From Pseudovibrio axinellae (lineage in GTDB: Bacteria; Pseudomonadota; Alphaproteobacteria; Rhizobiales; Stappiaceae), in contig NZ_FOFM01000021.1 in assembly GCF_900110875.1 (NCBI RefSeq), positions 1 to 33,473 on the forward strand: a DNA stretch of 33,473 nucleotides. Reading direction: 5' to 3'. The position numbers and the translations under genes are program-made. The number at the start of each line of letters is the position of its first letter. The stretch's first letter is position 1. Positions 1,621 to 21,273 of this stretch are shown piece by piece. The notes below the pieces were generated by a model. That model did no database searches, was not told the DNA's origin, and saw only the letters and a program-made list of their open reading frames with translations.

Positions 1621-2367
1621 TCAAAGCCTATTTCCACGTCCCAGAAACTTAAGAACGTCGCGGTTGGTTGGCCAACTGCGATAGCGTGCCGGCCGATCGT
1701 CTTCGGTTGGTAGGCAATCACTCTTATTTAGAAAATGAGAGGCAACGAGGTTGCCGGTTTTGCTGAAGAGTTCAAGGTTAGTTCTAAAGAGTGTTCTCTT
1801 TTGAGGCACTATACGCTGCTCTGCCAAGACCAGCCCTGAATCTATCTTTTGAATGCTCTCGTGCAAGCTAACGGTGAAACTCTTTTCATCATCCATGATT
1901 GCATCAAAGACTGGATCTGGGCCCTTGAAGATGGGGAGTTTTCCGGGATGAATGTTATAGGTTTTGCCGCCAAAGCGTTCGTAGAACTTAACCCGTAGAA
2001 TTTGGCCAAGGTGAACACTCAGGAAAATATCTGGTTTGCAGCCCTCTAAGAAATCGAGTGTTGTTTTGGAACTCACATCATTTGTGCGCAGGATAGGGCA
2101 ATTAAGGCTATGAGACCAAACCGGCATGGCCTTCCACTTTGGAACATGAGGAAGCCGACAGGCAGGCTTGGTGACTGCCCCTAAGTAGCCGGTATAGATT
2201 GGGCCAGAACGCGAGATGAGTTTTTTGTAGGCTCGCCAGTTGCCCTGGGTCCCGTCGATGGCTGTGCACTCCACCAAACTCGTAATTTTAATGTCTGGAT
2301 GGCGAAGGAGGGAGTGTAACGCGGCATCTGTATAGACACTGGCGCTCGATATGAGGCAGATCTGCAT
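1621..2367 (-). CDS. Formyltransferase-family protein, capsule operon
   Basis: A 248-residue protein with the formyl_trans_N fold (as in Fmt, PurN, ArnA and sugar N-formyltransferases). The N-terminal strand is MQICLISSAS. The catalytic triad of the family is visible: Asn138 and His140 in YNIHPGKLPIFKGPDP, and Asp176 in IQKIDSGLVLAEQ. These enzymes move a formyl group from N10-formyltetrahydrofolate to a primary amine. There is no Fmt C-terminal tRNA-binding domain, so methionyl-tRNA formylation is unlikely. It is the last gene of the leftward capsule operon, 13 bp after the second kpsS-like gene, with AGGGAA as ribosome binding site. A role in N-formylating an amino sugar of the capsule, or the amine of the lipid anchor, is inference from position. 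Confidence 0.8.
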   Translation of the reverse strand: MQICLISSASVYTDAALHSLLRHPDIKITSLVECTAIDGTQGNWRAYKKLISRSGPIYTGYLGAVTKPACRLPHVPKWKAMPVWSHSLNCPILRTNDVSSKTTLDFLEGCKPDIFLSVHLGQILRVKFYERFGGKTYNIHPGKLPIFKGPDPVFDAIMDDEKSFTVSLHESIQKIDSGLVLAEQRIVPQKRTLFRTNLELFSKTGNLVASHFLNKSDCLPTEDDRPARYRSWPTNRDVLKFLGRGNRL

Positions 2368-4980: not shown

Positions 4981-4995
4981 ACCAAGTCCACTCAA

Positions 4996-5652
4996 CTATT
5001 TGAGTTGATTTTTGCGATGCTGAGCGAGACCTTCAGCAAGAGAATCATACATTTTCAGCCGTCCCTCATGAAGAAGGCAGGCAGTATCGCAGAATTTCTT
5101 GATCGTCCCTTCAGAGTGAGAGATCATAATGATGTTCGAGTGTTTAAGCTTCGATTCAAACATTTCATTACATTTTTGTTTAAATCGTGCATCGCCGACG
5201 GCGGTGATCTCATCGATCAAATAGCAATCAAAATCAATTGCCATGCTCACGCCGAAGGCCAGACGAGCTTTCATACCACTTGAGTAAGTTTGGATTGGAA
5301 GGCTCATGGAGGGGCCAAGCTCCGAAAAATCCTCAACAAACTCCACCATCCGCTCAGTGTCCTGACCATACATGCGTGCCACAAATCGCGTGTTCTCGAT
5401 CCCGGTCATTTTACCAGCAAACCCACCACCAAAACCGAGCGGCCAAGATACCTTCACGTTTCTTTTGATACGTCCACTATCAGGTAACTCAGCTCCCGCG
5501 ATGAGACGCATTAGTGTGGATTTGCCTGCCCCGTTATGGCCGAGGATACCTACATTTTTTCCCTTGGGAAATTTTGCTGTTAGCCCGTGGAGGATAGTTT
5601 TAGTGACTCCTTTCAGGCGATATGTCTTTCGAACGTTTTGGAACTCAATCAT
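4996..5652 (-). CDS. kpsT: KpsT-type capsule polysaccharide ABC transporter ATPase
   Basis: A 218-residue ABC ATPase, the usual length for KpsT/CtrD/BexA. Walker A is GHNGAGKS (residues 38-45). The signature YSSGM is followed by KARLAFGVSMA, Walker B is YLIDEITAVGD, and the switch histidine lies in MISHSEG. The glycine-rich W-P-L-G-F-G-G-G-F segment after Walker A is typical of polysaccharide exporters. It hydrolyses ATP to drive export of lipid-linked capsular polysaccharide through KpsM. Its ATG overlaps the kpsM TGA by one base (TGATG). The protein lacks the C-terminal carbohydrate-binding extension of Wzt O-antigen exporters, so recognition is probably not of a non-reducing-end cap. In rhizobia the equivalent gene is rkpS. 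Confidence 0.93.
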   Translation of the reverse strand: MIEFQNVRKTYRLKGVTKTILHGLTAKFPKGKNVGILGHNGAGKSTLMRLIAGAELPDSGRIKRNVKVSWPLGFGGGFAGKMTGIENTRFVARMYGQDTERMVEFVEDFSELGPSMSLPIQTYSSGMKARLAFGVSMAIDFDCYLIDEITAVGDARFKQKCNEMFESKLKHSNIIMISHSEGTIKKFCDTACLLHEGRLKMYDSLAEGLAQHRKNQLK

Positions 5653-6419
5653 CAGTGTGACTTCTTCCTATAAAGACGTTCGCCATAAAACCCGACTAGC
5701 AGAAGAATTATAGCACAGGTCAAAAGGTAAGGTTTGCTTAGGACAACACTATCGTAGTTGCCATAATACCCCTCTCGAAACCACTCCACACCGTGTAAAA
5801 TTGGATTCCAAGCAAGAATTTTTACGATATGAGAAGGAAAATCACTCGGAACATAAAATATGCCAGATAGAAAAAAGAGAGGCCGACTTATGATTCCGTC
5901 GATCTGTTTCCAAGTTGGCCACAGTCGCAAGAGCACGGCATTTGTTGCGCCCGCGCCTAAACCGAGCAGAGACACGGCAAGAAACGCGGAGGCGCACTCT
6001 TCTGGACGAACCGGCAACGCTGCGTTATCCCACCAAATAATCAGTGTAAAAAATACAATAATGATCATAAGGTAAGTCAGCGTGATCAAAATGTACTTCG
6101 AAATTAGGAGGTCAGCTTCGTGAACAAGCGGGTAGCTTAACAGCCCACGACTAGAGTTGATCGCAGTCATCAAAGAGCCAGAAAGTCTTGAATATGTTTG
6201 GAAGGTCAACACGCCCGTTGCAAAAAACAAGGCGAAGCTTGTCCCAAAGGCGGGTGATCTGCCAATAGCGGAAAAAATCATCACAAGCACTAGAGTACTC
6301 AGAGCAGGATTAACGATTGCCCAAAGATAACCTAGTTGCGTGTCGCCGAATGCTGTCCTGGTTTCTCTAAGGACGAGAGCCCCAATGACTCTTGCTTGAG
6401 TAGTGATTACACCTTCCAT
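5652..6419 (-). CDS. kpsM: KpsM-type capsule polysaccharide ABC transporter permease
   Basis: A 255-residue ABC2-type membrane protein with six predicted helices. The N-terminus LRETRTAFGDTQLGYLWAIV carries the L-R-E-x-x-x-R-(Y/F)-G-x-x-x-x-G-Y-x-W motif of KpsM/CtrC/BexB permeases, and the fourth helix region has FFLSGIFYVPSDFP, also typical. It forms the inner-membrane channel with KpsT. The start ATG 6419 is nine bases after the kpsE-like stop, with AGGA as ribosome site. Rhizobial homologues are called rkpT. Length and motifs are intact. Confidence 0.92.
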   Translation of the reverse strand: MEGVITTQARVIGALVLRETRTAFGDTQLGYLWAIVNPALSTLVLVMIFSAIGRSPAFGTSFALFFATGVLTFQTYSRLSGSLMTAINSSRGLLSYPLVHEADLLISKYILITLTYLMIIIVFFTLIIWWDNAALPVRPEECASAFLAVSLLGLGAGATNAVLLRLWPTWKQIDGIISRPLFFLSGIFYVPSDFPSHIVKILAWNPILHGVEWFREGYYGNYDSVVLSKPYLLTCAIILLLVGFYGERLYRKKSH

Positions 6420-6428
6420 GCCCGCATC

Positions 6429-7808
6429 CTACTTGAGGTGATCACGAATGGAGTAAGCGATCATAGTCGCAAGCGCCCAGACCGCAAATAACCCGAGGAA
6501 GAGAAGGAGTGAGTTGGTCAGGCGGCGTGGATAGATGGCTTCCTCCGGTTTTGATGGAGGGTTAAAGACCGCAAGGTATCTTTGTTGACGGTCGGCCTCA
6601 GCGCGAGATCGTTCCAAACCGGCAAGTGCCGCTGTGTAGGCTTGTTGTGCAAATTCCTGCTCGACCAAAAGCTCTTCGTAGTTAGCCAGGAGAGAGGACA
6701 AGGAGGAAAGGCGATCAGCACCTTGCGGGACTTGACGCAGTCGATCAGTACCAACTCCACTTATCTCATCGCGCTTGCTCAGGATTTGCTCAATTAGAAC
6801 TTTTTCCTGCTTTCGCAATTGGCGAATGGTAGGCGAACTTTCATCGATGGTTCCGACGAGGGTTGCAAGGCGTGATCTCGTGTCAAGAAGCTGTTTTTCT
6901 AATCCCGCGATTAACTCGATCTGCACTTCTGCGTTACGCGTTGGATCTATCGAGCTCTGAGTACTACGAAAATCTTTCATTCGCATACGGCTGATTTTCA
7001 ATCGCAACTCTGAGCGGCGCACTTCCTCTTCAGCAAACTTCACCGCATCTTTACGCGCATTTTGGGAAAGCGTATTGACGAGATCGGCACCGTAGGAAAG
7101 AACGCGGGAGGCAATGCGCTCAGTCATCTCAGGCGTAAACGCCTGCACTTCAACTTCAATTATGCTTGATGTATTGTCAAAACTCGTTGCGATCATACCC
7201 TGCCAATAGTCAACTAGGTCTTCGATCGGCAGGCCGGGATCAAGTCGGTAAAGAAAATCGACGTTGTCATCGCCGAAATGCTCAATGATACCTTCGTCCG
7301 CGGCTAATTTTGCGACAACTTCGCGGCCTTGCATATAGTCCATCAAGATGAAGGAGTCAGTTGTGGTTGTCCCTACACTCGCAAGGCCCGTTAAAGCGCC
7401 TAGGAAATCTCCGCCTGCAGATGACCCATCCATGCCGCGAACGGCAAAGCCGATGGTTGAAGAATAGCGGTCCGATGCAATCAATAAGAAATAGGTTGTA
7501 CCAAGTAAGCTCGGAAGCAGCACCATTAAAGCGAAGGACAGCGCCAAGACCTTCCGCCTGAATTGTTGAGGCCTTAAACCGCGAAATTCGAAGAAGCCCT
7601 TAGCTTCTTCGGTTATCGTCTGCCTCGCCTTGTCGATAGGCAGTGCGACGATAGAAGCAACTTTCTTTGGAGAAATTTGCTTCTTCGCTGGCGTGGCAGC
7701 TGCCTTTGGTTGAGCCACCTTGCCGCTTTGCGGTGGTTTTGCACTATCAGGGTTAGCCGCGGCTGCAGGCAGAACCGCCGCAACTTTTGCTGTTGTCCCT
7801 TTTTCCAT
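6429..7808 (-). CDS. kpsE: KpsE/BexC/CtrB-type capsule export inner-membrane protein (polysaccharide copolymerase)
   Basis: A 459-residue protein. Residues 1-60 are rich in Ala, Pro and Lys and unstructured-looking. A first membrane helix is at about 87-110, then a periplasmic region, a long Arg/Glu-rich coiled coil at about 240-345 (EEEVRRSELRLKISRMRMKD within it), and a C-terminal helix at about 436-455 (YPRRLTNSLLLFLGLFAVWA region). This is the PCP-3 topology of KpsE/CtrB, which links the KpsMT exporter to the outer-membrane channel. Rhizobial RkpR is the counterpart. It lies 178 bp downstream of the Wza/KpsD-like gene and nine bases upstream of kpsM. The disordered N-terminal tail is longer than in E. 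coli KpsE. Confidence 0.88.
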   Translation of the reverse strand: MEKGTTAKVAAVLPAAAANPDSAKPPQSGKVAQPKAAATPAKKQISPKKVASIVALPIDKARQTITEEAKGFFEFRGLRPQQFRRKVLALSFALMVLLPSLLGTTYFLLIASDRYSSTIGFAVRGMDGSSAGGDFLGALTGLASVGTTTTDSFILMDYMQGREVVAKLAADEGIIEHFGDDNVDFLYRLDPGLPIEDLVDYWQGMIATSFDNTSSIIEVEVQAFTPEMTERIASRVLSYGADLVNTLSQNARKDAVKFAEEEVRRSELRLKISRMRMKDFRSTQSSIDPTRNAEVQIELIAGLEKQLLDTRSRLATLVGTIDESSPTIRQLRKQEKVLIEQILSKRDEISGVGTDRLRQVPQGADRLSSLSSLLANYEELLVEQEFAQQAYTAALAGLERSRAEADRQQRYLAVFNPPSKPEEAIYPRRLTNSLLLFLGLFAVWALATMIAYSIRDHLK

Positions 7809-7986: not shown

Positions 7987-9183
7987 TTAGAAACTGGTAG
8001 CCGCCCTGCCAATCGCTAATGTCCCGCCTAAAATGCGGATGAACTTGTTCAGTTCTGCACCGTAAGAGCTGGCAACGTAGACAACATCTTTGTCACGTAG
8101 GGCAAATAATTGACCTTTAAAATAGGACCGCGCATCTTTCATGTTAAGACGATAAATAACAGGAACTTGGCCTGGATTCGTGCCTACATACTCAGGTTTA
8201 AGCTGGGTGATGACCTGTGGGTCTTCGTATCGGAAAACAAATAGACCTTGTGCACTTGCAGAGTTTTTGTCGAGGCCACCGATGCGGCCTAAGGCTTCAA
8301 CCAGAGAAACGTTGGAAGCTTGAATTGGATATTCGCCAACTTTTGGGACAGATCCAAACGCGGTAAACGTTTGAGGATCATGGGTAACGAATACCCGATC
8401 TCCCGGGCGAATATAGACGTTTTCGTCTGAGTTTAAGAACACTGAGCTCAACAATTGTGTTGCTTGACGGCCGTTTCGTGCAACAGATACATAGCTTTCT
8501 GAGGCAGGAGATGCGTTTCCGCCTGCATTTGCAACGACATCTAGAAGTCGCTCACCATTTAACTTCAGTGGGTATTGCCCTGGTTGCCGAACGGATCCGT
8601 TGACAGTGACGAGGCTACTTGCATTTTGTTTCAATGTTACAATGACTTGAGGGTCGGTTGCCTTACGATCGAGCGCAACCTGAAGCGCTTCCTGAAGCCG
8701 CTCTACAGACTTGCCTCTCGCATGCACTTTCCCAACATACGGGATCGTAATAGCTCCGCTTTGATTGACCATAAATGGTCCAAGTTCAACGCCTCCGGCT
8801 TGCCCGGTTGGCGTAAATAGCCGATCGTTGCCCTGTTCCCAGACGACGACCGAGACCGTATCACCTACGCCGACGATGTGTTTAGGGGCCCATTTCCCAC
8901 CTTGAAAGACTTTTGCCAAACCGTTGGGTTGATAAGAGGACAAGACTGAAACGACTTCCTCATCCAGTTCAATCAAGTGGAAATCGAAGGGTTTCTCGCG
9001 ACGATCGGATGAGGCGGCTTGGATTTCGGAGGTGATAGGCCCAGCAGAAGGAAGCACCCCACAGCCTGAGACTAAACCAAGAAGCGGCGCGGCAATTGCA
9101 ATGGCTTTAAAAATTTTGGAAGTTCCTGGAACAGATTCTGACTGAGCAAGAGTACGAATTAAATGCATGAAACTTCTATCCAT
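7987..9183 (-). CDS. Wza/KpsD-type outer-membrane polysaccharide export lipoprotein
   Basis: A 398-residue protein with a lipoprotein signal: hydrophobic segment then lipobox LVSGC, lipidated Cys41 from the chosen start. Next comes a Poly_export domain (HIVGVGDTVSVVVWEQ). Two SLBB-like repeats follow, recognisable at VTVNGSVRQPGQYPL and FTAFGSVPKVGEYPI. It would form the outer-membrane pore for the capsule, as KpsD, CtrA or BexD do; RkpU is the rhizobial relative. Start choice is uncertain: ATG 9183 was used, ATG 9168 has a slightly better upstream purine stretch, and a TTG at 9213 is probably too close to the promoter. It is the first gene of the leftward export operon, divergent from the rkpH-like gene. 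Confidence 0.87.
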   Translation of the reverse strand: MDRSFMHLIRTLAQSESVPGTSKIFKAIAIAAPLLGLVSGCGVLPSAGPITSEIQAASSDRREKPFDFHLIELDEEVVSVLSSYQPNGLAKVFQGGKWAPKHIVGVGDTVSVVVWEQGNDRLFTPTGQAGGVELGPFMVNQSGAITIPYVGKVHARGKSVERLQEALQVALDRKATDPQVIVTLKQNASSLVTVNGSVRQPGQYPLKLNGERLLDVVANAGGNASPASESYVSVARNGRQATQLLSSVFLNSDENVYIRPGDRVFVTHDPQTFTAFGSVPKVGEYPIQASNVSLVEALGRIGGLDKNSASAQGLFVFRYEDPQVITQLKPEYVGTNPGQVPVIYRLNMKDARSYFKGQLFALRDKDVVYVASSYGAELNKFIRILGGTLAIGRAATSF

Positions 9184-9413
9184 TGTGCCGGCGGGCCGGG
9201 AATAACTTGTCAAATATACTCAATTTGAATACGAGTTGATTATTACTCGATCCGCCGTGAGAAATCAAACCTTTGACTCGATACAGATGCTGCTATCTAT
9301 TGTTTTTCTTGGAGAAAGTTTAGTTTTCACCCAAGTGTTCCAAAGAGGCATTGTGCGTTAAGGATCTGTTTGCCACCACACGCAAAAGTTTTGTTGCTAG
9401 GAGAATATTGCTG
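9184..9413. promoter_or_regulatory. Divergent promoter region between export operon and rkpH-like gene
   Basis: On the plus strand TTGACT (9273-9278) and TCTATT (9296-9301) are 17 bp apart and are a plausible promoter for rkpH, giving a leader of about 105 nt. On the minus strand TTGATT, an 18-bp spacer and AATAAT (about 9242-9271), or a TATATT near 9214-9219, are candidates for the export operon. The motif ACTCGAT occurs twice (around 9244 and 9276) and might be a shared operator; that is speculative. Confidence 0.4.
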
Positions 9414-10181
9414 ATGTTTATCCCGAAGTCGATTCTCATCACCGGGGCGAGCTCTGGTCTTGGGAGGGCCCTGGCGCTTTCCTATGCAAGAGAAGGAGTT
9501 ACGCTCTGTTTAACGGGGCGTAACGAAGAACGGCTCCGGAAAACCGTAGGCGCAGTAGAGCAAACAGGCTGTCGGGTACGTTGGAAACCACTCGATATTT
9601 GTGACGCGCAATCAGTTCAAGAATGGGTTGAACTACTAGAGCAAGAGACGCCACTTGATTTGGTAATTTCAAATGCTGGGATCACGGGCTCTCACGGCGT
9701 GAACGGGACTGTTGAAACCGCTGAAATTGCGCATGCTCAAGTTGCTACAAATCTGGGAGGAGCGATTAATCTGCTGACAGCGGTGGCACCGTTTATGCAG
9801 CAGCGGAGACACGGTGGGATTGCTCTGGTCAGCTCACTCGCAGGGATGCAGCCTATTTCCGATGGTCCTGCATATGGTGCTTCAAAAGCAGGTATCATCG
9901 CTTACGGTGAGGCGATGCGTGACCACTTACATCAGTGGGACGTGTTTGTTTCTGTGATTTGCCCTGGATATATATCCACACCAATGGCTGATCAGTTTAA
10001 GAGCTGGCGGCCCTTTGAGTACACACCTGATGGGGCTGCACTCAGGATTAAGACCTCTATTGGTCGGCGAAGAGCATTCTATGCTTTTCCATGGCAGCTT
10101 GCGTTAAGCATTCGCCTCGGAAAGCTATTGCCATGGAAATTACGCCGCTTGGCGAATCAGCGCTTTAATTATGAACGCTGA
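9414..10181 (+). CDS. rkpH: RkpH-like short-chain dehydrogenase/reductase
   Basis: A 255-residue classical SDR. The cofactor-binding motif TGASSGLG is at residues 10-17, SNAG at 86-89, and the catalytic Ser141, Tyr154 and Lys158 are in the YGASK context. The C-terminal part (WKLRRLANQRFNYER) is basic and somewhat hydrophobic, suggesting membrane contact as in 3-ketosphinganine reductases. ATG 9414 was chosen because it starts right before the Rossmann strand and has AGGAG at ten bases; an in-frame TTG at 9351 is less likely. In Sinorhizobium the homologue rkpH follows rkpA and rkpG on one strand and is needed for K-antigen. Here it is on the opposite strand, ending 19 bp from the rkpG stop. 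The likely job, inferred, is reduction of the ketone made by RkpG. Confidence 0.82.
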   Translation: MFIPKSILITGASSGLGRALALSYAREGVTLCLTGRNEERLRKTVGAVEQTGCRVRWKPLDICDAQSVQEWVELLEQETPLDLVISNAGITGSHGVNGTVETAEIAHAQVATNLGGAINLLTAVAPFMQQRRHGGIALVSSLAGMQPISDGPAYGASKAGIIAYGEAMRDHLHQWDVFVSVICPGYISTPMADQFKSWRPFEYTPDGAALRIKTSIGRRRAFYAFPWQLALSIRLGKLLPWKLRRLANQRFNYER

Positions 10182-10200
10182 TTCTATATCCGATTTATCG

Positions 10201-11562
10201 CTAGGCTGACATAAGCTGTTGGAGAGAAACCGGCTCATTTTCGTAACTGCGTAGCTCTTCCTTGATCAGCTTGATTGCAAGGTCGATCTGATCTTTCGTA
10301 TGCTCGGATGTAATGAAGAACCGAAGCCGCGCTGATTTTTCTGGTACAGCGGGGTGGATGATCGGTAAAACGTTGAGCCCGCGCTTGAGCAAGCGATCAG
10401 ACAGCACAGTCGCTTTAAGTGAGTCGCCAATCATCATTGGTACGACAGCACAGCCTTGGCTAACACCCGTATCCAACCCAGCTGCTTGAGCTTGTTGGAG
10501 GAAGTAGCGGCCATTTTCCTGTGCTGCCTCCACCCGTGACGGTTCATCACGCATGGTGCGGATCGCCTGACACACGGCAGCTGCTATTGGAGGCGCGATA
10601 CCCACGCTGAATACAAAGCCTGAGGCGGTAAACTTGAGGTATTCGATTAGATTGTGGCAACCCGCGATATAGCCGCCGCACCCGGCAAGTGTTTTGGAAA
10701 AGGTTCCCATCCAGATATCAACATCACGTGCATCAACCTGAAAATGCTCAGCAATCCCGCGGCCAGTCTTGCCTAATACGCCAATGGAATGTGCTTCATC
10801 GACCATGAGCCAAGCGCCAAATTTCTTCTTGATCTCGATTAGACGGGGAAGGTCCGGGTAGTCACCGTCCATCGAGTAAACGCCTTCAACGACAATTAAA
10901 GTGCGCTGGTGTTTGTGTGCACGCAGTTCAAGAATGCTCTCGAGTGCATCAAAGTCGTTGTGCTGGAAAGACTGACGAACCGCGCCTGACAGTTTGGCGC
11001 CAGTGACGATGCTATTATGGATATAGCTATCATGCACGATGAGATCGTCTGGTTGCATAAGCTGACCAATGGTTGAGACATTGGTTGCGTGTCCGCTGAC
11101 GAAAGCAATAGAACTGTCTACGCCGTGCAGGTGCGCAATCCGTTCTTCGAGTTCGGTGTGGATCACGCGTTCCCCGGCGACGACACGGCTTGCGCTGGCC
11201 GAGATTCCGTAGTGATCCACTGCTGCTTTAGCGGCTGCTTGAACCTTGGGGTGGCCGTTTAAGCCCAAATAATCATAGGAGGAGAAATTAAGATAGGTTT
11301 GTCCATCAATTTGCGTCGTCGCTCCAGCGCGCCCTTCATGTGCACGGAAGAAGGGGTTGTCGATGTTTAAAAGTTCAGCTGCCGCCTTCTGCAGTCCGAT
11401 CTCCTTAAACCCTGGTAGATCGGCAAACTTCGGAGCAGTTGCCCGAGCCTGTTGAGGTTTGGGCGTGGATTGTTTCGGTGCTGCATTTTTTAAACGCCGT
11501 ACAGCGCTTAAAGCTATGGACCGTTCATCCGTGCTTAACTTTTTCTTGTTTGACTTTGCCAT
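10201..11562 (-). CDS. rkpG: RkpG-like alpha-oxoamine synthase (PLP-dependent acyl transferase)
   Basis: A 453-residue fold-type I PLP enzyme of the alpha-oxoamine synthase family (AONS/BioF, KBL, serine palmitoyltransferase). The PLP lysine is Lys290 in GTFSKTLAG, the ring-nitrogen aspartate is Asp255 in VDEAHS, and the substrate-loop FSSYDYLGL is at about 93-101. Family members condense an acyl thioester with a small amino acid, losing CO2, to give an alpha-amino ketone. Residues 1-45 form an extra Lys/Ala/Pro-rich tail not seen in BioF. Its ATG overlaps the rkpA TAA by one base (TAATG), so acyl-ACP from RkpA is the obvious candidate substrate. Pathway assignment follows rhizobial RkpG; the amino acid used is unknown. 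BioF itself is an unlikely call in this context. Confidence 0.85.
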   Translation of the reverse strand: MAKSNKKKLSTDERSIALSAVRRLKNAAPKQSTPKPQQARATAPKFADLPGFKEIGLQKAAAELLNIDNPFFRAHEGRAGATTQIDGQTYLNFSSYDYLGLNGHPKVQAAAKAAVDHYGISASASRVVAGERVIHTELEERIAHLHGVDSSIAFVSGHATNVSTIGQLMQPDDLIVHDSYIHNSIVTGAKLSGAVRQSFQHNDFDALESILELRAHKHQRTLIVVEGVYSMDGDYPDLPRLIEIKKKFGAWLMVDEAHSIGVLGKTGRGIAEHFQVDARDVDIWMGTFSKTLAGCGGYIAGCHNLIEYLKFTASGFVFSVGIAPPIAAAVCQAIRTMRDEPSRVEAAQENGRYFLQQAQAAGLDTGVSQGCAVVPMMIGDSLKATVLSDRLLKRGLNVLPIIHPAVPEKSARLRFFITSEHTKDQIDLAIKLIKEELRSYENEPVSLQQLMSA

Positions 11563-14500
11563 TAGTTTAAAATTCTTACGGTTTTATCGTGATGGGTGTC
11601 GAGAATGTCGCGTACAGCGGACTTTTGCGCATCATCCATGTCGTCAGCAACGTGCTGGCCTGCTAGCACGCTGTGTGAGCTATCCTCCGCCGCCATGTCT
11701 CCGTTTTCACGCTTGCGAATCTTCTGTAGAATTTGAGCAGCAAAGTCATCCAAACATGTTCCACCAGAGATGGAAACCAGCGGAATTTCCAGATTGAAAC
11801 GTTTCTGAATACCCATACGCAACTCAAGGCCCATTAGCGAATCCATACCAAACTCAGCGAGCGGACGCTGGTGTGAGATATCTTCTGCGGGCAACCGAAG
11901 GATGCGTCCGATCTCAATCGCGAGAAGGTGCGCAACAATCTCATTTGCTTCAGGGTCAGTCTTGTCTTCGATGAGAGAACGGATGTCTGTGGCGCTATCA
12001 CTCTCATTATCTCCGTCAGCGCGACCAACAATCTCGCGGAACAACGGTTTGCTCAAAAGTGATAGCGATTGGTGAGCTGCGGCCCATGCAAAGCGTCCAA
12101 TATGCACAACTGCGTTCTGTTCAACGCCATCATCCTGTTCCACCACGCGTTTGAGGATATCAAGACCCTCGCGCGCTTTGATGGTTGCTTCGCCAAGGTG
12201 GCGTGAAAGCTTGTCTGAAACATCTGTGTTTCTTGCAAGGAACCCTACATCGCCAATGGCGCCCCAGCCAACAGCAATAGCTGGCTTACCTAACCTGCGG
12301 CGGGCTCTGGCAAGGCCTTCAAGGTACCCATTCGCAGCGACATAATGAGACTGCCCTGGATTTCCAATCATCGTTGTTGCTGAGGAGAACAAGATGAATT
12401 GTTCTAGTTCGTCCTGCCTCGTCAATTCGTCAAGCAAACTTGCGCCCTGAACCTTAGGTTCCAGAACTTTCCGGAATCGCTGCTCGTCAAGCTGTTGAAT
12501 AATTCCGTCGTCGAGAACCATGGCAGCGTGTGTAATGCTTTTTATCGGTGCCGACTGACGGAGTTCGTTTAGCAACGAGTGAACAGCTGATCTGTCGGTT
12601 ACATCACAACTCAGTACCGAGACAGTAACGCCTTTATCTGCAAGCGCTTCAAATAGTCTTTCATGTTGCTCGCTTACATTGGCGGAGCGGCTGGTGAGGG
12701 TGATGCGGCGGGCCCCGTTATCGGCAAGCCAGCGACAAACTTCCAAGCCAAAACCGCCAAGGCCACCAATGACGACGTGATGACCATCAGGAGAAAAGGC
12801 AAGCGACTTCCGCTCCTGTGGAACTTTTACGAGCTCTGGCTTTGGAGGGGTGATCAGAATTTTTCCAATATGACCAGAGCGCTGCATGAGCCTGAAGGCA
12901 TCTTGTACGTTGCGTCCGTCAAACTGGCGGTAAGGCAATGCCTTCAAACTACCGTCTTTGATCAGCGCAAAGACATCCTCAATCAACTCACGTGCCAGCT
13001 CACTATCGTGGAGCAGAATCTGGTCCAAGTCGATCCCGAAGTAGGACACATTCCGACGGAAAGGACGCAAGCCTATCTTGGTATTCGCGTAATAATCTCG
13101 TTTTCCGAGTTCTAGGAAACGACCGAATGGACGAACGACATTGATGCTGGCTTCCATTGCTTCACCCGCGAGCGAGTTAAGCACGGCATGCACACCTTTT
13201 CCGTTCGTCAGCTCCATGACTTGATCAGGGAACTCCAGACTACGGGAATCCAGAACATGGTCTGCCCCGAGTAACCGAAGAATTTCTCGTTTTTCGTCTG
13301 AGCCAGCAGTTGCTATCGTTTTTGCGCCAATATGCTTTGCAATTTGCAACGCAGCAAGACCAACACCGCCAGCACCACCGTGGATGAGAACCCACTGATC
13401 TTCTTTGAGATCTCCAAGGTGGACGAGTGAATAATAAGCGGTCAAGAAGGCAACGGGGTAGGTCGCTGCAGCAACAAGGTCCTGGCTTTGCTCAAGCTTC
13501 GCTACCGCAAATTTTGGACATGTGACATATGATGAGTAGCCACCTGATGTAAAAGCGACCACTTTATCGCCTTCAGCAAGTCCGGCAACATTCGCGCCGA
13601 CGCGCGTGACAACACCAGAGACTTCCAAGCCGAGATTCGGCCCACCATATCCATCTTCCAGCGCTTCTTCGGGAAGCATGCCAAGTGTCCACATAACATC
13701 GCGGAAATTCAAACCAGTCGCTGCAACTTGTATCTCGACATCATCCTCAGACGGGTCGACTCTTTGCTGACCTTGCCAAGTCAACTGGTTCAAAGAGCCT
13801 GCTTCAGCGAATGTTAGCTCCACATTTTCAGCAGGCTTCCAGGAAGACTGACCAAAGCCCGACTTCACACGCGAGACGACGTGATTCTTTTTTTGCTGCA
13901 GGAACTCATTCTCGTCATTTTTGTCGCCGAGAGCTTCAATAACATCAGATGCGATACTAGAGTTTTCATCATCAAGGCAAACGTCAAATGCGAGCGGTGA
14001 AAGTTCCGGCGCTTCATTTCCTAGGACCCTGGCAAATACCCATGCTGCAGTTTGGACTGGTGTAGCTAGCGTCGGATTAAGCCCACTGCCTCCTGCTGCA
14101 ACAAGTGTAAGCTGACCAGCAAGACCTGGATATGCTTTGACAAGCCCAACACAGCTTACGCAGCGCTTAATCACGTGATCGACAGGGCTATCACCGGTCT
14201 CTGTCAAGCCATATAGATGCACGATTGTTTTCATGTCGGCATCTAGGAAGTCGGAGCCCACAAGAGCCTTTTTCCAGCCACTCGCCGTATACAGATCGTA
14301 GTTTTCGCTATCGGCATCCAGCAGTGTGACGTTGCAAGAGGCTAAACGTGGATCATTTTGTATTGCCTTGGCAATTTCTTGCTCGCGCTTAGCCTGACCT
14401 GCCAGAATGATCATTGCTTTATTGTCAGGTGTCGTCTCCGGATGATCTGAGATTTCCTCAGTTTCAGTTGGTTTTCCGCAGGCATGTAGAAGCAAAATGG

Positions 14501-17500
14501 ATGTGCCATCTTTTAGAGCTTCAATGGCAACGAGCTCTTCAAAGGACTTGGCGCCAATTTCCGCTACCCAATCGTTGCTCGTCTTTAACGGGCCGACAGG
14601 GTAGTCATCTGCAATCGAGCCTGAGAACCAATCTTGCGACAAGCCAAAGGCTACGTCATGGAAGACATCTGCTGGAGGTTCGATTGCAATAAGCTGACCT
14701 CCTTCAACAAGTGCGTGCCCTAACTTGTGAAACAGATCTGGTTCGCTTTGACTTGCTGCGTGTAGAAGGCCAGAGGACACAATGATGTCGAACGGCGCGT
14801 GCTCCAGCACTGCTTCCCAAGTGTGGTTTTTGCCCTCATTACTGGTGTCGAAGACCATGATGTTTGGTTCATCCAGAACGCTGGCGGACAGGCGAGAAGC
14901 ACTTTTGTGGTTGCTATCTGCAATGCAGATCTGCGTGACATGGTCCGGAAGAGACTGTTGAATATCTTTTGCCAGATTGAGACCAGAGCCACTCAAATCA
15001 AGTACCTTGAGAGGCGTATCGGTATCCCAATTGGCAAGGGAGGTTTTCAACCACTGGGAAACACATTGGCTCCGTGTTTGGGCTTCAGGTGACGAATACC
15101 AATACTGTTCCAACATAGCGCTAGAATGTTCAAAGCTACTGTCTTCAAGGCCAGCCAGTTTTAAGCAGCTCAGTACATGTTGGCGTGTGCTCGCGAGTAT
15201 GGTTGCTGCTGCAATGTCTTGCGGGCTTTCTTCCAACACGCTTTCAACCAGCAAATCAAACTCTGGCAGCTCAAAGTCACTGTTAAGATCAAATAGGCCT
15301 GTCCCGCACTCGGTGACTGCTCCTGCCTCCTGCAAAATCGTCAGAAGGTTCACAAAGTACCTGCGGTTGTTGACAGGCAAATCTTCGATCGTGATCGTCT
15401 GTTCGGTATCAGCAAATAGGGAAATGATATCAAATGCTGTTCGTTGAGCAGCTGCATTCAACAGCAAATACGCTTCGCGTTCGGCTTCGTCTTCAACAGT
15501 TTGGAACTTCTTTGCAACGTAGTCTTCAATCGGAGGGAAGCTGTGGTTGAGCCTTTCGATTGGTTTTGCTGGGTCACGTTGCAATGCAGTCTCAACGCGA
15601 TAAACCAGATCAGAGGGATTATCTTGTCGACCAAGCTCGGTCGCTCTGAAACGACCACCTAGAATAACTGCAATGATGTCGTCATTTTCATCAAAGATCT
15701 GGAAGTCTGCCAGAATTGAGAGATTAGACGCACGCTTGACCTGAATACGAACATATGCAGGCGAAATACCTGATTGATACTGGCGTACTTTGTCAAAGAA
15801 AATAGGTACATAAGCTTTGGGGCGGCTATTATGCGCAGTCGTCTCTTTAAACAATGAGAGCAACCCGTGGAAACAACCGTCCAGTTCAGCCGGATGAAGT
15901 CCGAAAGGAGAACACTTCTCACGCTCTTCGAGCGCTGCTAGGTGGACAATGAACGTTCCTTTGTCAACCTGCGATACATTCTGCGCCCGTTGGAAACTTG
16001 GTCCGAACTGGAGGCCGTAAGTAAGAGCTGCGTCGTAAATCTCTTCACCCGTATTGATGAGGCTGGCAGATTCAAAATCAAGTTGAATTTCTGGAGGAGC
16101 TGTTTCGAGCTTACGCACTCGCCCAACTGCGTGCAAGGTCCAGTCGTCGCCACTCAAACGCATGCGGCTGGAGATCTGAACAGTGCCTGTTTCCTCTGAG
16201 ATCTCGGTTTGAACTTCCATCAGATAGTCATCGCTCAATACGAGCGCCTGCAGAATATCCATGGATTTTAGTTCAACGGATGCCGTTCCATAAAGTGATG
16301 CACCAGCAGCCAAGGCCATTTCGACGTAGCCAGCACCGGGGAAGATCATCTGGCCGTTGATCACATGATCTTCGAGGAATGGAACAGTGAAGCGGTCTAG
16401 GTGCGTTGTCCAAAGGTTGTAGTTTGCATTTGGACGCCATCCCAATAGAGGATGGTCTCCTCCTCGGAAGATGCCCATATTTGCTTCGCCACTGTTTTCG
16501 AAGCGATAAGGCTTGTTCTGCCATGGTAGGCTAGGCAACTCTACGCGTTCACTTGGGTTTTTGCCAAAGAGCTTTTCAGTATCAACTGTGATGCCTGCCA
16601 CGAATGCGCGAGCAGCTAGGTTAAGGACTGGGTCGGTGTCGCCATGAGACTCGTTGGATAGACTTGCAAGCGCGGACCCTTTCCCGCCTTTTTCAGCAAG
16701 CACTTGACGTAGGTAGCTTTGCAGAATTGGCTTGGGTCCAATTTCAACAATCGTTTGAGCTCCAAGATCAATTGCCGTCGCCACAGCCTTAGAGAACAAA
16801 ACGGGCCGGCGTAGATTGCGCCACCAGTAGTCATCAGTTAACTCAAGACCATCAGCAACTGCACCCGTGACTGTTGAGATGAAGGGGACATTCGTTGTGT
16901 GTGTTGCAACCGTTCCAACTGCATTCCTGAATGGGTGTTCAACGGGCTCAATCAATCGACTATGGAATGGATAGTTCAGCGAGACCTTTCGGAATGCAAC
17001 ATGGTTTGCACGGGCAAACTTTGCAAACCCGTCTAAGTCCTCTTTAGTCCCTGACAAACTAACGGATTTTGGACTATTTTCAGCGGCAATTTCGATGGAA
17101 TCGAAACCGCTTTTTGCGATCAGTTTTTGTGCTTCATCTGCTGGTAGGACGAGAGCTGCCATCGTTCCATGGCCTGCGACAACTTCTTGTTCTGCTGAGC
17201 GGTGATAGACAAGACTTACGGCAGATTCCAGGGTCAGAGCACCTGATATATGGGCTGCCGCAACTTCACCAATACTGTGCCCAAGGACCATATCTGGTTT
17301 TAATGAGTAATCTGCCAGCGCATCACAAAGAGCCACTTGCACAGCAAATAAAAGCGGCTGCGCAACGCTTGTTTTCTTTAAACCGATCTCAAGATCTTGG
17401 TTGAAGAGCTCAGTTTTTAGGGACCAGCCAGACAGGGGTTCAAAGAGCTTGTCAATTTTTTTGAAGGTTCGTTTGAAAGTCGGGTTTGCAGCATAAGCAT

Positions 17501-19145
17501 CGAGACCCATTCCGGCCCATTGAGCTCCGTTTCCTGAGAATGCAAATGCGCACTTTCCAGTGAATGCTGCCTTATTGGAATAAATTACGTTTGCGTTTTT
17601 TTTGCTCTCAGCAAAATCGACAAGAGCAGCCTTTAACGCATCTACATCATCTCCAACAATAATCGCCTTTTCTTGAAACCCGCGTTTCCTGTGATAACTC
17701 GCGGCGCAAACTTGCTTGACGTTGTTCGCTTTAATCACATCGTCCTGCACGTATTTTTCAGCAAGTGCCAGCAACGCTTCCTTTGTTGGTGCTGAAAGGG
17801 GCAAGCAGGAACTGGTTTCTTGGCGGTCAGCGATTTGCCGAACATTATCACTGGTGTTTTCTGGATCACGGATTATGACGTGTGCGTTTGTACCACCGAA
17901 ACCAAAGGAATTGATACCAGCATATCTGGTGCCTGAATCACGAGAGAGTTCAACCCCTTTGCTGGCGACTTTAATGTTCAATGCGTCAAAGTCGATATCC
18001 GGATTTGGTTCATCAAAATGCAAGCTGGCTGGGAAATAGTCGTGTTGAAGTGCTAGGACAGACTTTGCCAATCCAACTAGGCCTGAGGCTGGTTCAAGGT
18101 GGCCTACGTTTGTTTTTACGGAACCAATCGGCAAAGGAGAACGACGCTTTTGGCCCAGTGTTCGCCCAATTGAGCCGGCTTCGGCAGGGTCGCCAACACG
18201 CGTTCCAGTGCCGTGCGCTTCGATAAACGCCAGCTGGTTAGGATCGATGTCGTGCGACTTGTAAATACGCTCGAGGAGGTTTGCCTGCTCCACATCGGAT
18301 GGAAGGGACATGCCAACTGTGCGTCCATCCGAGTTTACATCAACGGCAACAATATCTGCATGCGAGCGCTGGCCTTTCCAGCGAGGCGCATCTTTTCTAC
18401 GGATGACAAGTGCGACCCCACCTTCTGAGCGCACATAACCATTTCCTTTGGCGTCAAAGGCCTTACATTGCCCATCTGACGAAAGCATTGTCGCTTGCGC
18501 GAAGCCAACAAAAGGAAAGGGGCTTGCCAGCACGTTGACGCCTGCGACGATCGCGCAATCAATTCTTCCAGAGTTTAAGGCGCGGTATGCCTCATGGAGC
18601 GCGACTAAGGATGACGAACAAGCCGTATCGACTGTGAAGCTCGGCCCTTTGAAGTCATAAATGTAAGAGAGGCGGTTTGAAATAATGGAAAGCGTATTGC
18701 CAGTCATAAAGTGACCGGTTGCAACGTTAGGATCAAATAAGCTTTCATTGGCATAGTCAAGGGCAGACGCACCCACGTAAACACCCACTTGGTCACCGGC
18801 CAGGACATCAGGTGAAATGCCTGCGTCTTCAATAGCTTCCCAGGTAAGTTGCAACAAAATTCGCTGCTGCGGATCCATTTGCTCCGCTTCCCTCGGAGAG
18901 ATTCCGAAAGCTGTTGGGTCGAAATCCCAAAGGTTTTCCAAAACACCGGCCTTAAACGTATAGGCTTTACCCGGTTCGGAAATGCGAGGGTGAAGGTATC
19001 TGAAGTGCGACCAGCGGTCCGAGGGAATCTTCGAAATACTGTTCTGTTCAGAACGCAATAAGTGCCATAATGCTTCCTTATTTGAAGCTCCCGGTACCCG
19101 AACAGATAAACCTACAATTTCCAACACGCAGCAAAGCCCATTCAT
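11562..19145 (-). CDS. rkpA: RkpA-like reducing type I polyketide/fatty acid synthase
   Basis: A 2527-residue megasynthase. Domains in order: KS about 5-425 (active Cys176 in VDTACSSSL; HGTGT; VGHLEPASG); AT about 525-840 (Ser624 in GHSIGE; YPFHS, closest to malonyl-type HAFH); DH about 890-1170 (His927 in DHVINGQMIFPG; Asp in AELDGCFHG); a degenerate C-methyltransferase about 1330-1540; structural KR part about 1570-1750; ER about 1800-2095 (HGGAGGVG at 1922-1929); KR about 2120-2300 (GGLGGFG at 2127; Tyr2268); ACP about 2405-2490 (phosphopantetheine Ser2436 in GMDSL). No thioesterase is present, so the chain should leave by another enzyme, plausibly RkpG. All reductive sites look intact, implying a saturated chain made iteratively. 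Architecture and neighbours match rhizobial RkpA, which is required for K-antigen capsule. Confidence 0.9.
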   Translation of the reverse strand: MNGLCCVLEIVGLSVRVPGASNKEALWHLLRSEQNSISKIPSDRWSHFRYLHPRISEPGKAYTFKAGVLENLWDFDPTAFGISPREAEQMDPQQRILLQLTWEAIEDAGISPDVLAGDQVGVYVGASALDYANESLFDPNVATGHFMTGNTLSIISNRLSYIYDFKGPSFTVDTACSSSLVALHEAYRALNSGRIDCAIVAGVNVLASPFPFVGFAQATMLSSDGQCKAFDAKGNGYVRSEGGVALVIRRKDAPRWKGQRSHADIVAVDVNSDGRTVGMSLPSDVEQANLLERIYKSHDIDPNQLAFIEAHGTGTRVGDPAEAGSIGRTLGQKRRSPLPIGSVKTNVGHLEPASGLVGLAKSVLALQHDYFPASLHFDEPNPDIDFDALNIKVASKGVELSRDSGTRYAGINSFGFGGTNAHVIIRDPENTSDNVRQIADRQETSSCLPLSAPTKEALLALAEKYVQDDVIKANNVKQVCAASYHRKRGFQEKAIIVGDDVDALKAALVDFAESKKNANVIYSNKAAFTGKCAFAFSGNGAQWAGMGLDAYAANPTFKRTFKKIDKLFEPLSGWSLKTELFNQDLEIGLKKTSVAQPLLFAVQVALCDALADYSLKPDMVLGHSIGEVAAAHISGALTLESAVSLVYHRSAEQEVVAGHGTMAALVLPADEAQKLIAKSGFDSIEIAAENSPKSVSLSGTKEDLDGFAKFARANHVAFRKVSLNYPFHSRLIEPVEHPFRNAVGTVATHTTNVPFISTVTGAVADGLELTDDYWWRNLRRPVLFSKAVATAIDLGAQTIVEIGPKPILQSYLRQVLAEKGGKGSALASLSNESHGDTDPVLNLAARAFVAGITVDTEKLFGKNPSERVELPSLPWQNKPYRFENSGEANMGIFRGGDHPLLGWRPNANYNLWTTHLDRFTVPFLEDHVINGQMIFPGAGYVEMALAAGASLYGTASVELKSMDILQALVLSDDYLMEVQTEISEETGTVQISSRMRLSGDDWTLHAVGRVRKLETAPPEIQLDFESASLINTGEEIYDAALTYGLQFGPSFQRAQNVSQVDKGTFIVHLAALEEREKCSPFGLHPAELDGCFHGLLSLFKETTAHNSRPKAYVPIFFDKVRQYQSGISPAYVRIQVKRASNLSILADFQIFDENDDIIAVILGGRFRATELGRQDNPSDLVYRVETALQRDPAKPIERLNHSFPPIEDYVAKKFQTVEDEAEREAYLLLNAAAQRTAFDIISLFADTEQTITIEDLPVNNRRYFVNLLTILQEAGAVTECGTGLFDLNSDFELPEFDLLVESVLEESPQDIAAATILASTRQHVLSCLKLAGLEDSSFEHSSAMLEQYWYSSPEAQTRSQCVSQWLKTSLANWDTDTPLKVLDLSGSGLNLAKDIQQSLPDHVTQICIADSNHKSASRLSASVLDEPNIMVFDTSNEGKNHTWEAVLEHAPFDIIVSSGLLHAASQSEPDLFHKLGHALVEGGQLIAIEPPADVFHDVAFGLSQDWFSGSIADDYPVGPLKTSNDWVAEIGAKSFEELVAIEALKDGTSILLLHACGKPTETEEISDHPETTPDNKAMIILAGQAKREQEIAKAIQNDPRLASCNVTLLDADSENYDLYTASGWKKALVGSDFLDADMKTIVHLYGLTETGDSPVDHVIKRCVSCVGLVKAYPGLAGQLTLVAAGGSGLNPTLATPVQTAAWVFARVLGNEAPELSPLAFDVCLDDENSSIASDVIEALGDKNDENEFLQQKKNHVVSRVKSGFGQSSWKPAENVELTFAEAGSLNQLTWQGQQRVDPSEDDVEIQVAATGLNFRDVMWTLGMLPEEALEDGYGGPNLGLEVSGVVTRVGANVAGLAEGDKVVAFTSGGYSSYVTCPKFAVAKLEQSQDLVAAATYPVAFLTAYYSLVHLGDLKEDQWVLIHGGAGGVGLAALQIAKHIGAKTIATAGSDEKREILRLLGADHVLDSRSLEFPDQVMELTNGKGVHAVLNSLAGEAMEASINVVRPFGRFLELGKRDYYANTKIGLRPFRRNVSYFGIDLDQILLHDSELARELIEDVFALIKDGSLKALPYRQFDGRNVQDAFRLMQRSGHIGKILITPPKPELVKVPQERKSLAFSPDGHHVVIGGLGGFGLEVCRWLADNGARRITLTSRSANVSEQHERLFEALADKGVTVSVLSCDVTDRSAVHSLLNELRQSAPIKSITHAAMVLDDGIIQQLDEQRFRKVLEPKVQGASLLDELTRQDELEQFILFSSATTMIGNPGQSHYVAANGYLEGLARARRRLGKPAIAVGWGAIGDVGFLARNTDVSDKLSRHLGEATIKAREGLDILKRVVEQDDGVEQNAVVHIGRFAWAAAHQSLSLLSKPLFREIVGRADGDNESDSATDIRSLIEDKTDPEANEIVAHLLAIEIGRILRLPAEDISHQRPLAEFGMDSLMGLELRMGIQKRFNLEIPLVSISGGTCLDDFAAQILQKIRKRENGDMAAEDSSHSVLAGQHVADDMDDAQKSAVRDILDTHHDKTVRILN

Positions 19146-19737: not shown

Positions 19738-21273
19738 TTATATTTTTTCATCAAAGCACCTCGTATATATATTTTCGACTAGCTCTTTTTCTTCTAGCGT
19801 AAGTGCAGCAAATTCTTTGGATTTGGCGCGTTCAGAGAGCTTTCCATTGTTTTGGTTTAAGAATCGGAAGAGGAGATCTGCAAGACGGGCCGGCATATCT
19901 ACGACTTCGTTGAGTTCACGTTGAAAGCGATCATGGCTCTGTAAGAAGCGGGCCTCTTCGGGCAGATCGTGTTCAACTGTTTGCATTACGCAAGCGTAAA
20001 GAAACTGGGCATGAGCCGTTGCATCAAAGAAACGATAGAAGTCAGCGGTGTCATTGGTTACCGTTAGATTGCCTTGCTGTGTAGGCTGCCAGTCAACTTT
20101 ACCGAGCAAACGCGTAGAATAGTCCTCCAAAACCTGCCTGTAGTCGTCGATCCGTTCCAAAATAACGGAGGACACAGGAAACACGACCCCGGCTGGATTG
20201 AAGCCACGCTGTGCAAGGACATGATGGAACAAGTAACGGTGCAGCCTACCATTTCCGTCTTCAAAGGGGTGCACATACACAAAACCAAAAGCGAGGACAG
20301 CTGCTGCGAGAACGGGATCCAAGTGTTTTGCATGGTCTTGCGCAAAGTCAATCATGCCTTTCATGAGGCTTGATAAATCCTCCGGCTTTGCACTGATGTG
20401 GTCCGGAACGGGCATATGGCTTTCGCGGTCATGTATGCCGACAAAGCCGCCTTCTTCGCGGAATCCCAGTTGCACGAAGCGATCATCCCCAATGACGATG
20501 CGCTGGAGACGAAGAAACTCTTCAATGCTGAGCGGCGTTTTGCCCGACTCCGCAATTGCGCGGCCCCATCGTTGAATGCGGTCATGGGCAGGTCGTTCGC
20601 CCTCTATTTCGAAACTCGACTTGCTGTCTTTGAGCAGGAGAAAGGCTGCGGTGCGTGCAAGCAGGTCTTTTGGTACGGAGGCGGCAGCTTCCATGGCCTT
20701 TTGCTGGAGGTTTGCTTGCTGAAAAACCTCCAACTCCTTCCTGCGGAAGATGAGAGGGCAAAAGAGCGGAGTACCTGGTAGGTTGTTGCGAACACGGTGG
20801 CGCGGTGAGGCGATGGGAGTTCCGCCGTACTGTTTTGCCGTATCCAGTGCGTCGACATAGGCGCCAGTTTCGACCGCTGGTAAATCAAGCAAGTCATTCG
20901 TAAGCCATTCATATAAAAACCAAATCCGGCGGGAGTAGCGACCCGTTGGACGTGACTTCACCATTTCCTCAATTGGTTTTGGGCCACAGGCAAGGAAGAG
21001 CCGCTTCAATACTGCAAGGTCCAACCCCTCATTTTTTAACGCAAAGGTGAGGTGCCCAAGCAGTGTCGGTTCTGGGGCGTGGCGGGGGGTGAGAATATGC
21101 CAGCCGTCTTTTTCGATGATCTTGTGACGGTCTCCGATTGCGTATAAAGTGTGCGGGATGGGGACACGAAGGTCATAGGCATCAATTAGCGCGGCATACC
21201 CAGCGGGAGTCGCAGGCACTGGGAGCCAGCTTTCGCGAAAAACTGTTACGGCCTGTGAAAAAGTCTTACTCAT
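19738..21273 (-). CDS. Class II Fic family protein
   Basis: A 511-residue protein with the Fic motif HPFEDGNGR at residues 335-343, a full match to HPFx(D/E)GN(G/K)R. Such enzymes usually transfer AMP from ATP to a Ser, Thr or Tyr hydroxyl of a target. Upstream in the same chain Ser220-Phe-Glu-Ile-Glu224-Gly225 fits the inhibitory helix motif (S/T)xxxE(G/N), placing it in the self-inhibited class II. Residues 1-200 form an N-terminal region I cannot assign; it includes basic stretches that might bind DNA. The C-terminal 100 residues are helical-looking. ATG 21273 has GGAG at eight bases. It lies 112 bp downstream of hmgA on the same strand, with a repeat array over its promoter. No separate antitoxin gene adjoins it, consistent with built-in inhibition. 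Confidence 0.88.
   Translation of the reverse strand: MSKTFSQAVTVFRESWLPVPATPAGYAALIDAYDLRVPIPHTLYAIGDRHKIIEKDGWHILTPRHAPEPTLLGHLTFALKNEGLDLAVLKRLFLACGPKPIEEMVKSRPTGRYSRRIWFLYEWLTNDLLDLPAVETGAYVDALDTAKQYGGTPIASPRHRVRNNLPGTPLFCPLIFRRKELEVFQQANLQQKAMEAAASVPKDLLARTAAFLLLKDSKSSFEIEGERPAHDRIQRWGRAIAESGKTPLSIEEFLRLQRIVIGDDRFVQLGFREEGGFVGIHDRESHMPVPDHISAKPEDLSSLMKGMIDFAQDHAKHLDPVLAAAVLAFGFVYVHPFEDGNGRLHRYLFHHVLAQRGFNPAGVVFPVSSVILERIDDYRQVLEDYSTRLLGKVDWQPTQQGNLTVTNDTADFYRFFDATAHAQFLYACVMQTVEHDLPEEARFLQSHDRFQRELNEVVDMPARLADLLFRFLNQNNGKLSERAKSKEFAALTLEEKELVENIYTRCFDEKI

Follow-up and report, generated by a model that had tools for sequence, protein, structure and literature searches.

Which lipid carries the capsule when the capsule genes lie beside a polyketide synthase? 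This question was raised by a 33,473-nt stretch of Pseudovibrio axinellae DNA (NZ_FOFM01000021.1, hereafter the window), which is the entire contig C44 of a 5.13-Mb genome and holds rkpA, rkpG and a short-chain dehydrogenase/reductase (SDR) gene. An earlier note, made from the letters alone, had proposed that these genes make a sphingoid-like lipid base that could carry the polysaccharide instead of the phosphatidylglycerol used in Escherichia coli. Based on comparison with characterized relatives, the three proteins very probably supply a serine-derived sphingoid base, and this base is on balance a likely candidate for the capsule anchor. The genes concerned are as follows.

11562 to 19145, minus strand: rkpA, a highly reducing type I polyketide synthase (PKS), predicted to be iterative (2527 aa; Pfam domains and motifs).
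10201 to 11562, minus strand: rkpG, a pyridoxal phosphate (PLP)-dependent alpha-oxoamine synthase (AONS) of 453 aa, predicted to be a serine-using 3-ketosphinganine synthase and the off-loading enzyme of the PKS.
9414 to 10181, plus strand: the SDR gene ("RkpH"), predicted 3-ketosphinganine reductase (255 aa when started at the ATG of 9414; the frame opens at 9351).

The Pfam domains of RkpA were ordered KS-AT-DH-ER-KR-ACP with no thioesterase among 15 hits, and the motifs TACSSS, HGTGT, NVGH, GHSIG, HVINGQMIFP, GGAGGVG, GGLGGFG, SHYVAAN and GMDSL were intact, which confirmed the reducing PKS without thioesterase that had been read from the letters. The RkpA homologues of Sinorhizobium and Pseudomonas showed an identical domain set, likewise with no thioesterase hit. 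Since RkpA lacks this domain, its chain would be released by another enzyme, and RkpG is the obvious candidate. The two genes meet at AACTAATGGCA, the TAATG overlap by which they had been said to be coupled. Among 115 rkpG loci with rkpA on the same strand, which were not dereplicated, 68 showed an overlap of 1-4 nt, more than chance, while 25 were spaced by 0-50 nt, 16 overlapped for longer and 6 lay more than 50 nt apart. We think that the 16 longer overlaps likely came from starts set too far upstream by the script. A fusion of PKS and AONS, suspected from long open frames in two loci (L042, L044), was rejected, as no locus held both in a single ORF. On a Planktothrix plasmid, one CDS (L165:5560-13158) matched both a PKS and an RkpG-like AONS in one frame and is annotated as fused.

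A precedent for this chemistry is found in Pseudomonas fluorescens MYb115. According to passages of Peters et al. 2025 (PMC12134224), the iterative PKS SgaA and the AONS SgaB yield C24-C28 sphinganines, SgaB has serine palmitoyltransferase (SPT) activity and takes L-serine almost exclusively in preference to glycine or alanine, and the SDR SgaC is the presumed ketone reductase. The same passages describe lipids of +154 Da, most likely phosphoglycerol-sphingolipids, and count 6,101 homologous clusters, with Burkholderia dominant. PKS-derived bacterial sphingolipids are thus already known; the cluster is treated there as a secondary-metabolite cluster, "capsul" does not occur in the text, and the capsule link is new here. 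In our tree, RkpG was grouped with Sinorhizobium RkpG and Pseudomonas AONS (29 rows, support 92/94). SgaB itself was not among the rows, and the Pseudomonas AONS of this clade are presumed SgaB orthologues. By clade place and by the PKS beside its gene, RkpG belongs to the RkpG/SgaB-type PKS-coupled AONS. It was 69-82% identical to the named Pseudovibrio proteins or loci, and carried the fold type I PLP residues of the AONS family, H182, D255, H258, K290, R412 and R414, which we take to be the stacking His, the Asp, the second His, the PLP Lys and the carboxylate-binding Arg residues. The route put forward earlier, from acyl-ACP and an amino acid through 3-ketosphinganine to an amino alcohol, is therefore well supported by this clade and by the SgaAB work.

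The SDR claim stood in part: the gene is indeed next door, but it lies on the opposite strand, converges on rkpG and is not co-operonic with it. Its protein shared 31% identity with the Sinorhizobium-locus SDR and 39-40% with those of Caballeronia and Pseudomonas clusters; overall it was most similar to SDRs from clusters of Stappiaceae, Methylobacterium, Caballeronia and Pseudomonas. It resembled these sister-cluster proteins and scored 97.4 bits on the KdsR model NF049977, below the cut-off of 400.

Beyond the SDR gene as seen from rkpG, the window holds the following capsule genes.

7987 to 9213, minus strand: kpsD-type outer-membrane polysaccharide export protein (Poly_export/SLBB).
6429 to 7808, minus strand: kpsE/BexC/CtrB-type export protein (TIGR01010 at 237 bits, under the 437.5 cut-off; no Pfam hit).
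5652 to 6419, minus strand: kpsM-type ABC transporter permease (Pfam/NCBIfam).
4996 to 5652, minus strand: kpsT-type ABC transporter ATPase (Pfam/NCBIfam).
3676 to 4995, minus strand: kpsS1, a Capsule_synth PF05159 protein of a clade from clusters without the RkpI-like gene described below; candidate alternative anchor enzyme.
2381 to 3679, minus strand: kpsS2, a second KpsS-like PF05159 protein (Pfam), candidate beta-Kdo (3-deoxy-D-manno-octulosonic acid) transferase.
1621 to 2367, minus strand: formyltransferase-like gene that follows kpsS2 and is tied to the capsule by its position alone.

KpsM, KpsT, KpsE, KpsD and KpsS, recognized by Pfam/NCBIfam, identified an ABC-dependent (group 2-like) capsule system, with the KpsE, KpsM and KpsS models scoring under their equivalog cut-offs. 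No two-domain KpsC was seen in the window; a GT8+PF05159 protein is present on contig C61 of the same genome.

The co-occurrence of RkpG with capsule genes was determined across the phylum in an evenly drawn set of 397 genomes, with thresholds of E<=1e-129 for RkpG and E<=1e-15 for PF05159. Only a small number of first-look candidates was scored in each genome, which leaves absences uncertain. PF05159 was detected in 19 of 20 RkpG genomes compared to 61 of 377 others (Fisher 1.6e-13); in one RkpG genome (G327) the match was weak (1.3e-17). The count of 20 excludes seven genomes whose AONS matches were weaker (7.5e-90 to 5.4e-116), one of which has PF05159. A scan of the relatives' contigs with the single RkpG protein gave no match, and an alignment-based scan gave at least 581 relatives, the best 80 of which were taken as named rkpG loci, their flanks reaching 10 kb at most and many contigs being truncated. 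rkpA was matched in 78 of these 80 (none in L129 and L154; on the opposite strand in L136), and the flanks held kpsD in 37, KpsT in 13, KpsM in 10 and KpsE in 10. KpsS was present in the flank of 71 of 118 rkpG loci and none was there in 47, in a set that counts some genomes twice (e.g. L034/L080, L037/L081, L042/L093, L046/L084, L050/L102, L177/L088). Gene context thus strongly supported a link of the RkpG pathway to capsule export. No paper joining PKS/AONS sphingolipids to a capsule anchor was found among the open-licence PMC matches listed.

Sister clusters hold one more gene that bears on the lipid. In annotated plasmid clusters of Pseudomonas, Caballeronia and Paraburkholderia, a gene named "LTA synthase family" (LTA, lipoteichoic acid) adjoins the SDR gene, and in Shinella an "alkaline phosphatase family" gene adjoins KpsS. 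In Sinorhizobium meliloti Ak57, a homologue of the LTA-synthase-like proteins was found at the rkpI position in a stretch without annotated gene; the record bears no rkp names, and we take the region to be rkp-1, and the gap the place of rkpI, by gene order. All six proteins of this kind that were scanned carried PF00884. GacH, a phosphoglycerol transferase, was matched by the Sinorhizobium protein at 4e-9 and by the Pseudomonas protein at 5e-13; the corresponding values for LTA primase were 1e-3 and 9e-14. Catalytic-type residues were invariant in 14 of 14 RkpI-like proteins. The gene was present in 23 of the 80 named loci, and its clusters occur in Sinorhizobium and other Rhizobiaceae, Ancylobacter, Faunimonas, Burkholderiales, Chitinilyticum, Marinobacterium and Pseudomonas. 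In Pseudomonas sp. TMW 2.1634, the genes that separate AONS from SDR encode PhyH, capsular-biosynthesis (KpsC-like), GNAT and LTA-synthase proteins. The locus tags of its plasmid PKS, AONS and SDR genes (RS26445/RS26440/RS26415) and those of sgaA, sgaB and sgaC in MYb115 (RS19805/RS19800/RS19775) show an equal PKS-to-SDR offset of 30 units, from which we infer that the sga region probably has a like gene content.

When the genomes were searched with an alignment of RkpI-like proteins (A2), matches at E<=1e-30 were found in 38 of 397, and 16 of these genes were capsule-placed, 15 within about 2 kb of PF05159 and one beside rkpA in G327 (judged by eye from coordinates, among the matches listed). 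RkpG was present in 12 of the 16 genomes, and the other four (G306, G400, G330, G320) all carried an SPT-family gene that scored 470-619 bits on NF047603, under its cut-off of 670, compared to 218 for the window RkpG. Within the 61 genomes with PF05159 and without RkpG, 4 of 4 whose A2 gene lies beside PF05159 carried SPT, compared to 1 of the 57 that have no gene so placed (Fisher 9.6e-6), three of the four being of one family. In three of the four the RkpI-like gene directly adjoins KpsS beside kpsMTE. The phosphoglycerol transferase gene therefore keeps company with a source of sphingoid base, either RkpG or SPT. In the other 22 A2-matching genomes the gene could not be placed beside any of the PF05159 matches listed; PF05159 lies on other contigs in two of these genomes (G310, G437). 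In another of the 22, G101, one contig (L221:3608-14450) carries an rkpA-rkpG-like pair together with an LTA-synthase-like gene; no kps gene was seen there, and this is possibly a non-capsule phosphoglycerol-sphingolipid cluster.

It is conceivable, though clearly less probable than not, that these genes make free sphingolipids for membrane or signalling, which aid capsule assembly or membrane order while ordinary lyso-phosphatidylglycerol is the covalent anchor. Several points weigh against a sphingoid anchor and most of them favour this alternative. LtaS-type active sites lie outside the inner membrane, so that a flip would be needed before KpsS could act. The S. meliloti 1021 capsule has been reported with a phospholipid anchor, a Burkholderia pseudomallei deletion including wcbR lowered the capsule without abolishing it, and loss of sphingolipids in a Porphyromonas gingivalis SPT deletion lowered but did not abolish the K antigen, as far as excerpts of these reports state; the P. 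gingivalis authors speculated on sphingolipid anchoring of the capsule. Moreover, free sphinganines and probable phosphoglycerol-sphinganines occur in Pseudomonas MYb115 (passages of PMC12134224). On the other side, PF05159 accompanied RkpG almost throughout, the RkpI-like gene adjoined KpsS in three RkpG-negative genomes that carry SPT, and a review passage (PMC4881576, citing Kiss 1997) ascribes to the rkp-1 products the synthesis and modification of a specific lipid carrier that serves K-antigen secretion. The lipid-carrier idea for rkp-1 is thus not new, having been proposed in 1997.

Another alternative, that RkpI-type proteins add phosphoglycerol to the polysaccharide after export and not to a lipid, appeared unlikely. 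It would fit the PF00884 domain with N-terminal hydrophobic segments, and enzymes of the LtaS/GacH type decorate polymers and act outside the membrane. Sugar decoration does not predict that the gene beside capsule genes tracks a sphingoid-base synthase in 16 of 16 genomes, or the skewed SPT distribution, and the probable phosphoglycerol-sphinganines of MYb115 also speak for a lipid acceptor.

The amino acid used by RkpG was considered as well. The AONS family includes alanine users (BioF) and glycine users (Kbl, HemA), and with alanine or glycine RkpG would give a 1-deoxy amino alcohol as in fumonisin-type mycotoxins, joined through its amine or C3 hydroxyl; a base without C1 hydroxyl would suit a window without RkpI. 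This was judged improbable, for the assayed relative SgaB is nearly exclusive for serine (passages of PMC12134224), and Y96 and S289 of RkpG were shared with the single SPT row compared (L195) and absent from the BioF, Kbl and HemA rows, although the SPT 3a2b has N at the Y96 position. Membership in classical SPT was rejected and the likeness retained: RkpG lay outside the six SPT rows of the tree and scored 283, 327 and 218 bits on NF047599, NF047600 and NF047603 (cut-offs 500, 640 and 670). A biotin-pathway BioF placed here by chance hardly deserves credence, even though bioF (TIGR00858) was the best NCBIfam model and some database homologues are named 8-amino-7-oxononanoate synthase, since RkpG scored 363.3 bits against a cut-off of 426.45, lay outside the two BioF rows, and has elsewhere in its genome another AONS that is followed by a BioD-like ORF and groups with E. 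coli BioF (HemA, BioF and BioD of this genome being recognized by eye, without family search). On sequence evidence RkpG is neither the BioF of this genome nor a classical SPT, and the comparison with both families that the earlier note had in view placed it in the PKS-coupled clade. In a phage collection, all AONS matches were below 37% identity among the matches listed (10 of 17).

The window itself represents a variant. None of the 17 candidates in its genome, all of which were scored, matched A2 at E<=1e-8; among 61 relatives, a weak match was obtained in 4. The four PF00884 proteins of the genome were rejected as the RkpI-like enzyme, three having no match and one being distant. No locus among the 118 combined the RkpI-like gene with two KpsS (0 of 33), while two KpsS were found in 32 of 42 loci that have any KpsS and lack the RkpI-like gene. 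Window KpsS1 falls in a clade of 17 rows (100/100), and all 18 KpsS whose loci carry the RkpI-like gene lie outside it. At least two PF05159 matches above 190 bits were counted in 32 of 34 RkpG-positive and 0 of 27 RkpG-negative relatives (by eye, among the matches listed). We hypothesize that the phosphoglycerol step is replaced by a second glycosyltransferase in Pseudovibrio-type clusters. As the window genome has no RkpI-like match, the base there may be used without phosphoglycerol. The "instead of phosphatidylglycerol" of the earlier note thus stands only in part: it may hold for the window, but in many sister clusters the LtaS/GacH-like gene predicts sphinganine-phosphoglycerol, a look-alike of lyso-phosphatidylglycerol.

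In the proposed mechanism, RkpA would build a long saturated acyl chain on its own ACP, and RkpG would release it as 3-ketosphinganine in a decarboxylative condensation whose amino acid is most likely L-serine. The SDR would reduce this ketone to a sphinganine-like base. This base would be the lipid on which KpsS-type Kdo transferases start the capsule for export by KpsMTED. In RkpI-like clusters, the phosphoglycerol transferase would first make sphinganine-1-phosphoglycerol; this would be the +154 Da lipid, and with the head group of lyso-phosphatidylglycerol it would mimic the KpsS acceptor. In the Stappiaceae, Pseudovibrio included, the second KpsS clade may place the first sugar, Kdo or another, directly on the base. 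We infer serine use by the window RkpG, SDR reduction, RkpI action on sphinganine, covalent capsule attachment and the role of KpsS1 from relatives and gene context. A unified reading, in which widespread Gram-negative capsules are built on a sphingoid base from RkpA/RkpG or SPT, with an RkpI branch and a Stappiaceae second-KpsS branch, and sgaABC is a capsule-anchor pathway, is offered tentatively, its chances being nearly even. If true, each rkp-1 gene would receive a step (chain, base, reduction, phosphoglycerol, Kdo), the "phospholipid anchor" would be reconciled with an AONS, and the bacterial PKS-sphingolipids of 2025 would be tied to capsules. The lipid carrier of rhizobial and related capsules would become testable by one mass-spectrometry experiment, and bacteria that live with sponges and plants would anchor their capsules through host-like lipids.

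Other neighbouring genes were also recorded. A Fic/DOC protein gene (19738-21273, minus strand) lies directly upstream of rkpA in the window, and an MTTB methyltransferase gene occupies its position in two other Stappiaceae-family loci examined (L083, L043); neither was supported as a head-group enzyme. Farther upstream, a type III PKS adjoins an isoprenylcysteine-methyltransferase-like protein (27634-29248, minus strand), a pair that we presume to be of the alkylresorcinol/pyrone type. Weak formyltransferase-like matches (44-53 bits) adjoin the SDR in Methylobacterium rkpG loci too (L105, L109, L118, L132). In Burkholderiaceae clusters and one further genome, the PKS gene is followed by that of an LpxC-like deacetylase (L162:13979-14905 and L163:13908-14822, in both directly before the AONS; also L176:5442-6380). 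A gene of about 380-390 aa lies directly 3' of rkpG at L172:11622-12767, L177:8836-9984, L086:11301-12479 and L178:7518-8669; the L172 and L178 proteins, the two scanned, had no Pfam hits.

Compared to known systems, the window cluster shares reducing PKS, AONS and KDSR-type SDR with fungal sphinganine-analogue clusters such as those of fumonisin (FUM1/FUM8/FUM13) and sphingofungin, in which FUM1 and FUM8 are the PKS and the AONS; to our knowledge the fungal clusters make secondary metabolites and lack capsule genes. FUM13 and SphF are named as KDSR-type SDRs in passages of PMC12134224. SgaA-SgaB-SgaC is alike in its single-module reducing PKS, off-loading AONS and SDR, with RkpG and the Pseudomonas AONS forming one group, and differs in that the window cluster has two KpsS genes and no LTA-synthase-like gene. 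The RkpI-position protein and its relatives resemble LtaS and GacH by matching 5u9z and 4uop with conserved catalytic-type residues, whereas their predicted acceptor is sphinganine and not a glycolipid or polymer. With Sinorhizobium rkp-1 (rkpA-G-H-I-J) and Burkholderia wcbR-type clusters the window shares RkpA, RkpG and KpsS homologues and capsule export; in rkp-1 the SDR is of another lineage and on the same strand as rkpG, and the RkpI-like gene is the one unmatched in the window genome. Finally, KpsMTED-type export and KpsS-type initiators are common to the E. coli group 2 system, in which (lyso-)phosphatidylglycerol is the acceptor of KpsS/KpsC, while the clusters described here carry a sphingoid-base pathway.

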